64,000 nucleotides of DNA, from NCBI GenBank assembly GCA_024280215.1, contig JAJRQO010000029.1, positions 1 to 64,000 on the forward strand, given 5' to 3'. Shown one piece after another: positions 3,861 to 9,525 of this stretch. Position 1 is the first letter of the stretch; every line of letters starts with the position of its first letter. The position numbers were made by a program, and so were the translations under genes. The DNA is from Candidatus Zixiibacteriota bacterium (GTDB taxonomy: Bacteria; Zixibacteria; MSB-5A5; GN15; FEB-12). The notes beneath the pieces were generated by a model. It did not search any database. It was not told the origin of the DNA and was given only the letters and a program-made list of their open reading frames with translations.

Positions 3861-5066
3861 TTAAATGTCAAGTGGAATTAGCTTCCAAAGTTCGGTTTTT
3901 GAGAGCTGAGTATTTCCTGAAATGAGGCTGATTATCTCTTTAGTTCGAGTCGATGCTATCTGTTTTGTAATAGATTTGAGTAGTCGAATTGTGACTTTTT
4001 TACCATTTATTGTAGCTGGTGGAGTGATAATATTTACATGATTTTCAGCTAAAAAGCGAGCAGATTTTGGGAGAAAAACTGCTTTGATTTTTGGATTTGT
4101 GGAGGTTCCAGTAATCCGATTGACTACAATTGCGGGTCCCGATTCATTTTTTTCAGATTCTATATATTGCGGTTTTTGGCTGTTATGTAGGGTTAGTTTT
4201 CCGTCTCCGATATTGTGAGACCAGATGAGTAATTTTGAATTTTCATCAGAATTTGTCAGTTTTTCTTTGTTTTTATTCCAGACAATTGAACCTGTTTTGA
4301 CTTTAAAACCAGCTTCAAAAAGTGTCGATTTTTGATGAAATAGCTGTTTTAATTTCTCAGTATTTGGAGAAAAAATCGAAATATTATTTCTTGTGAAAAC
4401 ATATTTTCCTCGATTTTTCTGTTTTTTTAGGATGAGTAGCATCACTTGTTGCTGAGCATTTGAAAAAATTGATGATGATGAGATGATTTTTAGGTGCTTT
4501 ATTTCAGCTCGGTTAGTAATGAATTCTCGTAAATTTTTGAAATAGGCACCGTTGTTCATTGATGGTGGAACGACAAATCCGAGAGTACCATTCTCTTTTA
4601 AAAGGTCAAGGCTGAGCTTAATAAAGAGAGAGAAGATATTCATTCTCCCACCTAAAATTTCATGAAATTGTTTCTTTTGTTCGTCTGAAAGCTGTGTTTC
4701 AAAGTAGGGAGGATTACCAATTATAAAGTCAAATTTATCTTTTTCCATTGAAGTAAGCGAATTTATGTTTGAAAATTCAGCCTGAGGAATGATTGATTGA
4801 GCTATTTTTACAAGTTTTGAATCGATTTCCCATCCATATAATGATGCATTTGACCAATAAGTTGCCGCCGAGAGTAAAAATTCGCCTGTACCACAGGCGG
4901 GGTCCAGCACTTTTGGTGATTTTATTTTAGGCAATAATGAGATTAATTGCTCACGGATTGATTTAGGAGTGAAATATTGACCATGTTTTTTTCGGTGTAA
5001 GATATTTGTCTGAGTCAGATATTCAATTGAAAGTGGATGGAATTCAGTTTTGTCAATTTTTCTCAT
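3861..5066 (-). CDS. N6-adenine DNA methyltransferase (TaqI/Eco57I-like)
   Basis: 401 aa class I S-adenosylmethionine-dependent DNA methyltransferase. Motif I (VLDPACGTGEFLL) binds the cofactor, and motif IV NPPY (in FIIGNPPYFE) is the catalytic signature of N6-adenine methylation. The N-terminal HGQYFTP segment is also typical of gamma-type enzymes such as M.TaqI. The C-terminal 200 residues, including the NRITGTSTNPK stretch, would be the target-recognition region. No restriction endonuclease gene lies beside it: the neighbours are an empty 1-kb gap and a divergent lipid-synthesis gene. It may therefore be an orphan methyltransferase, with the caveat that a nuclease could be elsewhere. The recognition sequence cannot be deduced. 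Confidence 0.85.
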   Translation of the reverse strand: MRKIDKTEFHPLSIEYLTQTNILHRKKHGQYFTPKSIREQLISLLPKIKSPKVLDPACGTGEFLLSAATYWSNASLYGWEIDSKLVKIAQSIIPQAEFSNINSLTSMEKDKFDFIIGNPPYFETQLSDEQKKQFHEILGGRMNIFSLFIKLSLDLLKENGTLGFVVPPSMNNGAYFKNLREFITNRAEIKHLKIISSSSIFSNAQQQVMLLILKKQKNRGKYVFTRNNISIFSPNTEKLKQLFHQKSTLFEAGFKVKTGSIVWNKNKEKLTNSDENSKLLIWSHNIGDGKLTLHNSQKPQYIESEKNESGPAIVVNRITGTSTNPKIKAVFLPKSARFLAENHVNIITPPATINGKKVTIRLLKSITKQIASTRTKEIISLISGNTQLSKTELWKLIPLDI

Positions 5067-5159
5067 AGTTGAGCATACTATAAAAATGATGATTGCAAAA
5101 TATAAAAAACAGTTGTAGAGCGATTAATTTTAACTTATTATTTGTTCTATGGTAACAAT

Positions 5160-5804
5160 ATGTTAAAAGAAATATTTTTACTTCCAAATCTGATTTCTCT
5201 TTTTAGAGTTTTAATAACTCCTGTCATAGGCTATTGTCTCTATATAGACAGTGAACTGGCTACTTATACGGCTCTGGTTTTGATGTTTTTTGCTGGGATA
5301 TCAGATGCATTAGATGGGTATATCGCTCGAAAGATGAATCTTGTTTCTGATTTCGGGGTTGCATTTGACCCTATTTGCGATAAAATATTTGCTATTATTA
5401 TGTTGGTTTTCCTGATCCTGTTTCGGGAGTTTCCATTATGGTTGGCAGGCATTATATTAGGGAGAGACCTACTGATTGTGTTTGCGGGCTGGTTACTTCT
5501 TAAAGGTCGTAAGATTGTTGTACCATCTAATCTGACAGGGAAATATACTTTTGCATCAATTGCACTTCTTTTAGGTTCATCAACTATACGATTTCCGTTT
5601 GGGATTGAGACAACAACTTATTTTACTCTCTTTTTTACAGTAGTTTCATTGCTTGTTTACTATCGGGTATTTCAGAAAGTAAAAAAAGGTGAACCAGCTC
5701 CGTCTTTTAAAGATAACAAGAATTATGCTATTATGCGAACTGCCTTTGTTGTATTGTACTTATCATATTTTATTTACAAACTTTGGCTCTATTTATTATG
5801 TTAA
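5160..5804 (+). CDS. CDP-alcohol phosphatidyltransferase (PgsA-like)
   Basis: About 214 aa integral membrane enzyme that joins a CDP-activated lipid to an alcohol, most likely CDP-diacylglycerol to glycerol-3-phosphate. The family signature D-x2-DG-x2-AR-x8-G-x3-D-x3-D is complete (DALDGYIAR ... GVAFDPICD). Five or six hydrophobic segments surround it. The opening LPNLISLFRVLITP is typical of phosphatidylglycerophosphate synthases. I place the start at the second ATG (MLKEIF); an upstream in-frame ATG at 5142 would add six residues. The end overlaps by four bases the end of the convergent fusion gene. PgsA and cardiolipin-type synthases are not separable by eye. Confidence 0.85.
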   Translation: MLKEIFLLPNLISLFRVLITPVIGYCLYIDSELATYTALVLMFFAGISDALDGYIARKMNLVSDFGVAFDPICDKIFAIIMLVFLILFREFPLWLAGIILGRDLLIVFAGWLLLKGRKIVVPSNLTGKYTFASIALLLGSSTIRFPFGIETTTYFTLFFTVVSLLVYYRVFQKVKKGEPAPSFKDNKNYAIMRTAFVVLYLSYFIYKLWLYLLC

Positions 5805-8140
5805 TACTCTAATTCTTCATGAAATTTTACTACAAAATCAGAATATGAATCACTTACAATAATACCTAAATCATGAACAATTTTAGCCATTGCAGTATAG
5901 TAGTTGTATCTAATTTGTATGAATTGTAAATCAGTTTCGAGAGTTGTTTCTATTATTGCCAGGAAGTCAGTAGTTGAAAGTTCATCTTTATAATATTGTC
6001 TGTTCGCAATATCAAGAGAGCTATAGGCTCGTTGTTTTGCTTGGTATGAAGGAGTCATCTGTTCGGTGAAACGAGTAAAGTTCTGAAATGAAGTTAAGCC
6101 TTCTTTCATTGTCGTCAATGAGATAATATCTTTTTGATATTCAGATTCGCTTAAGAGAGCAGCGGTTTGCTTCTTTTGGTTGTGTCTTTTACCACCTAAG
6201 AAAAGTGGTAAGCTGATTTTTCCACCGACATACCATGAGAAATCTTTTTCCTGAAAATAGATAGTTTCTTCTTGAAAATCAGAATAGAGCAAGGAACCAT
6301 GCAAAGAGAATTCAGGGAAAAAGGATGAAGCACTTTTTTCAAGCAAAGCTTTATTGTAATTGATAAGGGCATCGGCTTTTGCTTGTGAGGCATTTTGAGT
6401 GAGCATTTTTTCAAGAAGTCTGTTTTCAATTTCATCTTGTGAAGAATGGGTTTGTAGTTTTGATATAATTGGAGATTCAAATTCAATAAATGAATTTTCT
6501 GAAAAATAGATTTTATCAAAAAATAGTGGTTCAGAATAAGGAAGATTTAACAAACTGTTTAAGCCGATCTTGGCTGTTTTTTGTGCCCGATTGTTTTTGA
6601 TATAAGCGAGAGTAAGATGGTAACGGTACATATCCAAACGTAGCAGACTGAGTGAGTCAGTTTTATCAGCTATTTGCTTGGCTCGTAGTAACTCAATATT
6701 GTATGAAACCATATTGCGAAGATTTTGGATAACTTTACTTTCTTCTTGAATACGGAGGTTCGCTAAATATGCCAATGAAAGTGCACGTTCTAAATTAAGT
6801 TTCTCAATTTCATGAGCTCGTTGTTCGACTATTTTAAGTTCTTTTACTGCTTGGATGTTTTTTAACTTTTCTTTAGAGTAAATTGTCTGAGACATGTTGA
6901 GAGATGATTTGAAAATTTCATTTTTAACATAGTTATGGAAATTTGACTGCAAATTATTATCAATATAGTCAAACTCGGCATTAGCAGATAATTGTGGTTT
7001 GTATGCTGATTTAGAAATGCCAATTGAAGCATCGAGAGCATCAATTTTGTCTGACTGTGCTAAAATCAAAGGATTCTGACTTATTCCACGATGAACTATT
7101 TCACTTAAGCTTTCAACTTGAGTTCCAACTGTTTTTCTATCCTCAATGATTTCATAATTATTAAATAATTGCGAACGCATCGTAATATTACATCTTTCAA
7201 CTGAATTTTTATTTAAAGCAATATGAGTTCCAGAGCGGAAAATAACAGGTAGCTCTGAGGGAGTAACTCCATTTAGAATTTCAATAGTTTTGTACGCATT
7301 AAAATATGCTTCTGATACAAGCCCAAAATAATTGTTGGTTGCAGTTGCACCATTTTGTATGAGCAAAGAGCCTTCGTCTGTAAATGACATCAGTTTTTCT
7401 CTATTGAGCATTTCAAAAAATTGTGGAATTTTTTCAGATGCTAACCCCCATAGTGGAGAGAGGTAAATAGCATCAACTTGAGCATCACGGATTTTGGCAT
7501 ATGACTTGTAGAAGGCAAAGGTTCCCTTGTTGTCAAATTCAGTTGCGGTGACAACCTCAAAACCGTATTGTTTTCCAATTGACGTGATATGTTTATCCAA
7601 AGAAAGAGAACTGTCATCTGATGGAAAAGAAAGCACACCAAGTTTTTTAAGAGGTTTAATTTTCATGAGTGTAAGAATGTCATCAACAGTTTTGCCCGGT
7701 CTAAAATGCACAGTCAGATTTTTAGCAATGGGGCGGTCATGGTCATCAAGCAATCCTTCTGCTTTTGGATTAAACTGATGCATTCCGATTATCGGCTTCT
7801 CAAACCCAGCTTCAAGTAAATCTTGTACAACCCAAGGGCCAAAAGCTAACATAATATCGATATTGTTTTGTGCTGCCAATTGTGCAGCCATCTGTTTCGA
7901 TTTTTTCCTGTCCCATTCGGCAGAGCGAAACCCCTCGGGTATAGAAACGAGTTGCACCGAATCTGGAAGCATTAGTTCCAGTTGCTTAAAATATTCATCC
8001 TGTAAAATAGAATGGACATCATACTGCCCAGCTTCAAAATAACCAATGTTATATTTTTTTATACTGTCAGCATGTACAGCACTTTGTAGTGCTAAGCTTA
8101 TCAATAGAATTGAGAGAATAGATTTTATTGTATAAAACAT
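5801..8140 (-). CDS. ABC-type substrate-binding domain fused to a TolC-like outer-membrane channel
   Basis: 779 aa. After a signal peptide (about residues 1-24), residues about 25-320 resemble the ABC_sub_bind family of periplasmic binding proteins (alternating Rossmann segments such as NIDIMLAFGPWVVQDLL and KKLGVLSFPSD). From about residue 345 onward the protein is an outer-membrane efflux protein: ISQNPLILAQSDKIDALDASI, long amphipathic helices and a repeated second half (ENRLLEKMLTQNASQAKAD). The two parts are normally separate polypeptides. It follows a response-regulator gene by 74 bases on the same strand, which suggests co-transcription. The function could be ligand-responsive export, but this is inference. 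No inner-membrane pump or adaptor gene is adjacent. Confidence 0.8.
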   Translation of the reverse strand: MFYTIKSILSILLISLALQSAVHADSIKKYNIGYFEAGQYDVHSILQDEYFKQLELMLPDSVQLVSIPEGFRSAEWDRKKSKQMAAQLAAQNNIDIMLAFGPWVVQDLLEAGFEKPIIGMHQFNPKAEGLLDDHDRPIAKNLTVHFRPGKTVDDILTLMKIKPLKKLGVLSFPSDDSSLSLDKHITSIGKQYGFEVVTATEFDNKGTFAFYKSYAKIRDAQVDAIYLSPLWGLASEKIPQFFEMLNREKLMSFTDEGSLLIQNGATATNNYFGLVSEAYFNAYKTIEILNGVTPSELPVIFRSGTHIALNKNSVERCNITMRSQLFNNYEIIEDRKTVGTQVESLSEIVHRGISQNPLILAQSDKIDALDASIGISKSAYKPQLSANAEFDYIDNNLQSNFHNYVKNEIFKSSLNMSQTIYSKEKLKNIQAVKELKIVEQRAHEIEKLNLERALSLAYLANLRIQEESKVIQNLRNMVSYNIELLRAKQIADKTDSLSLLRLDMYRYHLTLAYIKNNRAQKTAKIGLNSLLNLPYSEPLFFDKIYFSENSFIEFESPIISKLQTHSSQDEIENRLLEKMLTQNASQAKADALINYNKALLEKSASSFFPEFSLHGSLLYSDFQEETIYFQEKDFSWYVGGKISLPLFLGGKRHNQKKQTAALLSESEYQKDIISLTTMKEGLTSFQNFTRFTEQMTPSYQAKQRAYSSLDIANRQYYKDELSTTDFLAIIETTLETDLQFIQIRYNYYTAMAKIVHDLGIIVSDSYSDFVVKFHEELEY

Positions 8141-8214
8141 ATTTTTACTTTCCTTTTTAAGTGACGAAGGGAAGTGAAAATATATATAAAAATATTATGA
8201 AGGTAAACGAATAA

Positions 8215-8583
8215 TTATGCAGTTGTTAAAATAGAATTAACTAATTCAGTTAAACCTTTAGCTCTGTATGGCTTTTGGAGGAAATAGAGGTGACAGTTTA
8301 ACTCCGCAGGGATGTCATCATTATTGTATGAATTCCCACTTGAAAATATTCCTGGGATATTTGGAGATATTTTCCGAAGTTCAGTCAGAATTTCGATTCC
8401 GTTCATATCATCTAAAAGCATATCGACTAAGACGACATCTATTGATTTATGGTTTTTATGAAAAAGTGAGATGGCAGAGGTGCCATCTTCGGCTGTGAGG
8501 ACGGTATGTGAATCTCTTGTTAGAATTCTTTCTGCGAGAGAGCAAATCATTTCTTCATCATCTATTACAAGTATTGTTGCCAT
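8215..8583 (-). CDS. Single-domain response regulator (CheY-like)
   Basis: 122 aa receiver domain with no output domain. The acidic pocket is IDDEE (residues 8-12), the predicted phospho-acceptor is Asp54 in VLVDMLLDDMNG, and the conserved lysine is Lys104 in LQKPY. The switch position before it carries a serine (FSSGN). It is the upstream gene of a two-gene unit with the binding-protein/TolC fusion, so it may act on a partner protein rather than on DNA. No histidine kinase is adjacent. Confidence 0.9.
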   Translation of the reverse strand: MATILVIDDEEMICSLAERILTRDSHTVLTAEDGTSAISLFHKNHKSIDVVLVDMLLDDMNGIEILTELRKISPNIPGIFSSGNSYNNDDIPAELNCHLYFLQKPYRAKGLTELVNSILTTA

Positions 8584-8856
8584 CTGTTACACCTTTTTTA
8601 AATCTTCAATTATGTGGTACAATTACTAATGTTTAATATCGGTCTTATCTTTAGAATATTAACTGTTCTAAAGGAGAGATGCTTCTTTGGTGTTAGATAA
8701 AGAGAACAATAGGTGTCTTTTTTTACCTGCTTTATTGACTTTTCTCATTATCGTTGTATATATGTAGACAGATGTTTTTTACCGCATATAAGAGATAGAT
8801 CTTTTCAACAAAAAGACGATTGTAATATTTTTCTAACTCAAACAACAGCAATAAAA

Positions 8857-9525
8857 ATGAAATTAAGTATCGTACAAAAAGATATACAAAATAACGATTA
8901 TTATGACTTTTTAGAGCATCTTTCTGACTCTGATACAGATGTTGTTTTGTTTGGGGAATTGGCGACTACGGGATGTCTATATAATGGAATGGAAAATAGA
9001 AAAATTGAACCTGTTGAGACACTATCTGAGAAATTTCAAAAATACTCATTTTCAATATTATTAGGTACTCCTCGTATCGCAAATAACAAGTTGTACAATT
9101 CATATATCTCATTTGGGAAGTCTGATGTCCAAATCTATGACAAAGTTAATTTGTTTGAGCCAATGAATGAGGTCGAACATTTTACTGCTGGTGAGAAACC
9201 TGTACTTTTTGATATTGATGGAAAAAAGATTGGTGTCTCTATATGCTATGATGTCCGTTTTCCAAATCATTATGATATCTTGAAAGAGATGGGGGCTGAT
9301 ATAATAATAATTCCCGCAGCCTTTCCACGAATACGAATTGATGCTTGGAAAGAACTTCTGATAGAAAGAGCAGTCCAAACTAAACTTACAGTTGTTGGAA
9401 TTAACGCTGTTGGTGATGATGGCACCAATGAGTTCGGAGGTTCGTCGATGGTTGTAGCACCTGATGGCTCTCTTATCGCTCAAGCTGATGAAATTAATGA
9501 AACAATTATAGAGGTAGAATTATGA
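8857..9525 (+). CDS. Carbon-nitrogen hydrolase (nitrilase superfamily, omega-amidase-like)
   Basis: About 222 aa cytoplasmic hydrolase of the nitrilase superfamily. The catalytic triad is visible: Glu34 (FGELATTG), Lys96 (YDKVNLF) and Cys130 (GVSICYDVRFPN). The size and the CYDVRFP signature fit YafV/NIT2-type omega-amidases, which hydrolyse 2-oxoglutaramate-type products of glutamine transamination. The reading frame is open 48 codons further upstream, but the family alignment begins at MKLSIVQ, so that ATG is chosen. Its stop overlaps the next start (ATGA), so it is translationally coupled to an aminotransferase. That pairing supports a transaminase plus omega-amidase pathway, for example 2-oxo-acid salvage. 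Confidence 0.85.
   Translation: MKLSIVQKDIQNNDYYDFLEHLSDSDTDVVLFGELATTGCLYNGMENRKIEPVETLSEKFQKYSFSILLGTPRIANNKLYNSYISFGKSDVQIYDKVNLFEPMNEVEHFTAGEKPVLFDIDGKKIGVSICYDVRFPNHYDILKEMGADIIIIPAAFPRIRIDAWKELLIERAVQTKLTVVGINAVGDDGTNEFGGSSMVVAPDGSLIAQADEINETIIEVEL

Follow-up and report, generated by a model that had tools for sequence, protein, structure and literature searches.

Introduction

Studies of TolC have treated it as an export duct with a passive role towards the substrate; in its resting state it is closed at its periplasmic tip. We describe here a gene that joins a substrate-binding protein (SBP) of the ABC_sub_bind family and a full TolC-like outer-membrane factor (Pfam OEP) in one polypeptide. 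It lies, with a gene for a single-domain response regulator just upstream, in a 64,000-nucleotide stretch (the window) of a Candidatus Zixiibacteriota bacterium, from the uncultured phylum Zixibacteria, within contig C35 of a 3.03-Mb genome (G000). The fusion shares with the TolC superfamily its fold, four barrel strands per monomer and two helical hairpins; it differs in about 310 added N-terminal residues that form the binding protein, in having no linked adaptor or pump, and in the little conserved periplasmic tips of its helices. It is a variant of that superfamily, of a kind that is partly known.

The described systems closest to the N-terminal half are TrpX, CD0873 and VC_1101 (3lft, 6hni and 3lkv), which have the same two-lobed class I fold at 19–20% identity and each hold an aromatic amino acid (PMC6816091). 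For the whole protein a partial parallel is E. coli YbjP, which is seated on TolC in the zone that separates the equatorial domain from the membrane (PMC13082787; 9v52, 9tg4), roughly where our model suggests that the fused domain should lie; YbjP, however, is a separate lipoprotein outside the ABC_sub_bind binding proteins. Our literature search found no paper describing the SBP-OEP architecture.

A binding domain joined to a TolC-like channel

The fusion gene (positions 5801–8140, reverse strand) is an unbroken open reading frame of 779 residues with full-length homologues in other genomes. The original prediction, made from the sequence alone, had read it as a binding domain followed by a complete channel; its coordinates and domain assignments proved correct. 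Both Pfam domains are present, and the structural model shows both folds. ABC_sub_bind matches residues 71–325 (E 3.5e-7; 30.2 bits against a curated cut-off of 25.9) and OEP matches in two stretches (E 3.8e-18; 66.4 bits against a curated cut-off of 22). Residues 1–24 (8069–8140) form the signal peptide region, assigned by eye rather than by a dedicated predictor: a hydrophobic stretch, helical in the model (residues 2–22), precedes a plausible Sec cleavage site after AVHA, and inspection of the same N-terminus showed no lipobox cysteine.

An AlphaFold2 model of the monomer, built on 15 aligned sequences (pLDDT 82, pTM 0.74), gives residues 28–332 (7145–8059) the two-lobed class I fold of the TrpX type, with target-normalised Foldseek TM-scores of 0.84 to 3lft and 0.83 to 6hni and 3lkv, so that the N-terminus does have the binding-protein fold whose absence would have overturned the prediction. 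The C-terminal half, residues 340–765 (5846–7123), matches TolC (7ng8, E 1.6e-17, target-normalised TM-score 0.74) and is modelled with long helical hairpins and four barrel strands: strands 1–2 at residues 383–393 and 407–422 (6875–6994) and strands 3–4 at residues 610–622 and 633–643 (6212–6313). A sequence search of the PDB also brought up DNA sliding clamps (E ~3e-4); the model has no clamp fold, and we take this as a chance match in helix composition.

The original prediction placed the sensors at the channel entrance, and here the model disagrees. Residue 332 is the last of the binding domain, and a short helix (357–378) leads directly into the first barrel strand from residue 383, while the periplasmic tips (residues ~493–496 and ~717–723) lie at the far end of ~70-residue helices. 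Judged from this secondary structure, the binding domain would sit at the channel's equatorial waist, far from the tips.

Homologous fusions adjoin export pumps

A search for other proteins of this domain composition found them in Zixibacteria, in the phylum of Desulfobacula and in Sulfuricurvum. Distant full-length fusions in four related genomes (G018, G022, G046 and G091) are followed by genes for an HlyD-type adaptor and an RND pump (the set in G018 being assigned by Pfam). More such fusions occur in Zixibacteria and in 14 of the 297 genomes of Desulfobacula's phylum, where most adjoin HlyD and RND genes if the contig is long enough. On plasmid pSULKU01 of Sulfuricurvum kujiense the order is TetR, fusion, HlyD, an RbbA-type ABC ATPase and an ABC permease; this fusion (WP_041667226.1), which carries no annotation beyond "ABC transporter substrate binding protein", is the sole named relative that we found. 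Homologous fusions thus adjoin HlyD together with RND or ABC-2 pumps, and the architecture therefore belongs to tripartite exporters, as an established type of exporter outer-membrane factor. To this extent the ligand-gated export of the original prediction is plausible: a binding domain mounted on an exporter's duct is a real arrangement.

The pump-linked proteins have the same domain order as the fusion in the window and a similar length (~780–830 aa), and a single alignment model spans both halves of both groups. They differ in their adjoining HlyD plus RND or ABC-2 genes and their conserved tips; in the window's clade, by contrast, no pump genes are linked, the cleft segment (GPWVV) is conserved, and a receiver gene often accompanies the fusion. 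Contig C35 gave no HlyD_3 or ACR_tran match, so the gene linkage of a tripartite exporter is absent from it and the earlier remark that no pump is nearby stands.

The fusion is old and widely inherited

The fusion has a match in 74 of 98 related genomes, mostly full-length and at 25–58% identity, and full-length copies also occur in the single-contig genomes G030, G043, G047 and G050. In a sample of the phylum, matches extending into the binding half occur in 67 of 126 genomes, a count that leaves out five genomes with OEP-only matches. In the same-genus genome G002 (L032, 9811–12149) a stop codon splits the gene into two overlapping matches, as a pseudogene or a sequence error would. The fusion is genuine, of old date and inherited across many genomes. 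In a maximum-likelihood tree all pump-less fusions form one clade (SH-aLRT 100), within which the Zixibacteria families f1, f3 and f4 are separate groups; the pump-less fusion has thus passed down vertically in the three families. In separate trees of the SBP and OEP halves the pump-less and pump-linked groups come together each time, at weak support values (87/80 and 71/83), and uniting the pump-less SBPs with SBPs of Desulfobacterota gives a tree that is not rejected (p-AU 0.27); a single origin of the fusion and a double one are both left standing.

Conservation is reversed in the pump-less clade

Mean pairwise identity was compared between 55 pump-less and 15 pump-linked fusions. Among the pump-less proteins the binding half is the better conserved (40.3% against 28.1% for the OEP half), and the top-conserved segment, residues 95–125 (7766–7858; GPWVV-DLL-AG--KPI) in the cleft of lobe I, reaches 61.7%, 2.19 times the OEP half; the helical tips, the part by which TolC docks its adaptors, are at 22.6–23.9%. 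Among the pump-linked proteins the order is the reverse, with 30.8% for the binding half, 37.3% for the OEP half and 50.6–53.2% for the tips. The ratio of SBP to OEP identity is accordingly 1.43 (95% bootstrap interval 1.39–1.48) in the pump-less and 0.82 (0.78–0.87) in the pump-linked group, and that of tips to OEP half is 0.87 (0.83–0.91) against 1.46 (1.34–1.59), with disjoint bootstrap intervals. The tips are thus the least conserved part of the protein in one clade and the most conserved in the other, and the contrast persists in pairs matched for OEP divergence.

In two species of one genus (G031 and G042) the fusion has lost both barrel segments, and with them all four strands, while the binding domain and the receiver are retained. 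The lost stretches correspond approximately to residues 354–446 and 590–675; the shortened fusions lie at L062, 7583–9442 (G031) and L063, 8277–10127 (G042). Between these two species dN/dS is ~0.23 for the binding domain and ~0.48 for the rest, with dS near saturation. In G046, a third species of that genus, the protein is complete. The barrel-less fusions also keep a downstream gene for a pyridoxal phosphate (PLP) enzyme.

Given the reversed conservation and the loss of the barrel in G031 and G042, the simplest reading of these alignments is that ligand binding would be the selected function in the pump-less clade and that adaptor docking has been relaxed. It is here that the ligand-gated export proposed for the window's own fusion loses ground: in its clade the tips are the most variable part, and two species without a barrel still keep the SBP. 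The observation behind the original prediction is confirmed, and its mechanism supported in part.

Signalling genes accompany unfused relatives

The nearest unfused relatives of the binding domain that we found lie in sensory operons. The one in Desulfobacula maris stands between a LuxR-type regulator and a dCache histidine kinase; those in Desulfovibrio and Desulfobacula follow genes for a dCache-HAMP-SpoIIE protein and a racemase-like enzyme. The only other ABC_sub_bind gene of G000 (C27; L111, 7978–13065) shares its operon with a HAMP histidine kinase, two single-domain receivers and a receiver-kinase, and from its gene content this operon appears to be a binding-protein-fed two-component system. 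Such systems, this one and that of Desulfobacula, resemble the window's locus in having an SBP that adjoins signalling genes; theirs, however, is unfused and has a linked kinase, whereas no kinase is linked to the fusion. Circumstantially, these operons, together with the PLP-enzyme genes that adjoin the fusion in several f1 genomes, favour sensing, perhaps of an amino-acid-like ligand. As a separate observation, the set of dCache-HAMP-SpoIIE phosphatase, ornithine/alanine-racemase-like enzyme and binding protein is conserved between Desulfovibrio sp. W18 (L102, 2634–7065) and Desulfobacula maris (L152, 5697–10434), and is possibly a racemase-linked sensory system.

As to the ligand itself, the fusion scores 40.9 bits against the NCBIfam TrpX equivalog, far below its cut-off of 390. 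The residue that sets side-chain selectivity is Ala268 in SP1069 and Glu263 in CD0873 (PMC6816091). By hand alignment this position falls on the conserved G257 of the fusion, and the residues that govern side-chain preference do not line up as they do in TrpX and CD0873.

A receiver gene tied to the fusion

About 75 bp upstream of the fusion, and on the same strand, lies the gene for the single-domain response regulator (8215–8583; 122 aa). Response_reg covers residues 4–115 (E 1.8e-18, Pfam), there is no output domain, and D8/D9, the phospho-acceptor D54, S81/S82 and K104 are retained, which bears out its original reading as a receiver; it is "CheY-like" by size and domain only. An orthologous receiver stands directly upstream on the same strand at 27 of the 62 fusion loci that could be assessed. 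All 27 belong to family f1, where 47 loci could be assessed; f3 and f4 have no such locus. The fusion does recur beside receivers, a point that the original prediction had marked for checking. A profile search of 54 f1 genomes, in which a narrow step parted orthologues (E <= 1.3e-28) from the remaining receivers (E >= 3.8e-27), found 31 copies in 30 genomes; 27 are at a fusion and one is at a contig edge (G045). One genome (G028) has two fusions with one receiver apiece. Since 27 of the 31 copies are at a fusion and many fusion loci have none, the receiver is tied to the fusion and yet dispensable for it. The receiver is cytoplasmic and the fusion exported, so the two cannot touch unless our reading of the signal peptide is wrong; any link between them must depend on an unlinked kinase or on joint expression.

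Proposed function and alternatives

The reading that we favour, with a probability of roughly 0.48, is that the fusion is a periplasmic protein that binds a ligand and is anchored in the outer membrane, with an exporter's outer-membrane factor as its base. A TolC-type factor would carry a class I binding domain of the TrpX type, probably as three domains per predicted trimer at the waist of the channel. The architecture is one that exporter outer-membrane factors have, with the window's clade no longer tied to a pump and now led by binding. The binding domain would capture or sense a small molecule in the periplasm, the TolC half would serve mainly as trimeric anchor or pore, and the co-inherited receiver, phosphorylated by a histidine kinase encoded elsewhere, probably belongs to the same response in the cytoplasm. 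We prefer this reading because of the reversed conservation, the constrained SBP of the barrel-less species, the sensory operons of unfused kin and the linkage to the receiver. A bolder form of it, which we think unlikely as it stands, holds that the TolC-type channel has become a scaffold, set in the outer membrane, for a periplasmic chemoreceptor: the trimeric domains would read a small molecule, a dedicated receiver would relay the signal in the cytoplasm, and loss of the barrel in one genus would be the end point.

Several observations weigh against binding as the leading function. The receiver is absent from f3, f4 and ~24 f1 genomes and so is not essential; it lies apart from the fusion in G008 and G053, and in G001, of the window's genus, it is present where no fusion was detected. 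Nearly all members retain the barrel, so that pore function is probably still selected, and the relaxed tips could be an adaptation to several different adaptors. Finally, G000 has six OEP proteins, five of which adjoin pumps, the fusion being the only one that does not, while two adaptor-pump sets in the same genome have no adjoining OEP gene: an RND set at 128–132 kb of C34 and a MacB/ABC set at 64–68 kb of C23.

An outer-membrane factor without a pump and two pumps without an outer-membrane factor fit a shared TolC-like exit duct, which would serve the unlinked HlyD-RND pump of C34, the HlyD-MacB-ABC pump of C23, or both, with the SBP loading or gating a periplasmic substrate. This comes near the ligand-gated export first proposed, but with an unlinked pump, and the pump-linked homologues and the near-universal barrel speak for it as well. 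Against it, the adaptor-docking tips are the very part that the pump-less clade has conserved least, two species dispense with the barrel, and the OEP proteins adjoining other pumps could serve those of C34 and C23 too. We regard the shared duct as a serious competitor, though a doubtful one, and rank it below the binding-led reading.

A role in nutrient capture seems considerably less probable. A ligand would enter through the TolC-like pore, be caught by the tethered SBP and be handed on to an importer in the inner membrane, which would suit an SBP family of the ABC importer type in which the members of known structure bind Tyr, Phe or Trp, the strongly conserved cleft segment, and the amino-acid-type racemase or aldolase genes that adjoin several relatives. 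The fusion has no linked ABC permease or importer ATPase and is flanked by the genes for a CDP-alcohol phosphatidyltransferase and the receiver; the closed resting state of TolC and the SBP of the barrel-less variants also argue against uptake through the pore. That an assembly or frameshift error joined two unrelated genes has next to no chance of being right, since apart from the stop-split copy in G002 we found nothing in its support, and it is refuted by full-length homologues, which occur in dozens of independent genomes (including four in a single contig) and on the complete Sulfuricurvum kujiense plasmid.

Because this old and widespread fusion occurs both with pumps (RND or ABC-2) and without them, it is a natural system in which to learn whether outer-membrane factors ever read or select ligands. 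Thanks to the reversed conservation and the barrel-less species, a single purified domain would be enough to test whether the fusion is a sensor or a duct.

Neighbouring genes and other observations

A gene for a CDP-alcohol phosphatidyltransferase (5142–5804, forward strand; Pfam) converges on the fusion gene. It is the convergent neighbour in most loci and is probably a conserved neighbour, not a functional part. In G001 (L191, 58–574) the phosphatidyltransferase and receiver genes abut, ~26 bp apart, with no fusion between them, through loss of the fusion or misassembly. No riboswitch or other known RNA was found in positions 5000–9000, and promoter-like sites around the locus showed no excess over shuffled sequence; terminator-like sites numbered 5 against 1.1 expected, with 0 inside the gap between receiver and fusion.

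In C13 of G000 (L110, 6902–10092) an RND pump gene is present as two overlapping open reading frames in different frames, by a frameshift or a sequence error. In family f4 a multi-pass membrane protein of ~370 aa without a Pfam match always precedes the fusion (L051, 10886–12001, and the other f4 loci). Several f1 genomes have a gene for a fold-III PLP enzyme of the aldolase/dehydratase type 3' of the fusion, and many f1 genomes have two paired ABC half-exporter genes that are oriented divergently to the receiver-fusion unit (L049, 12334–15943, and similar loci).

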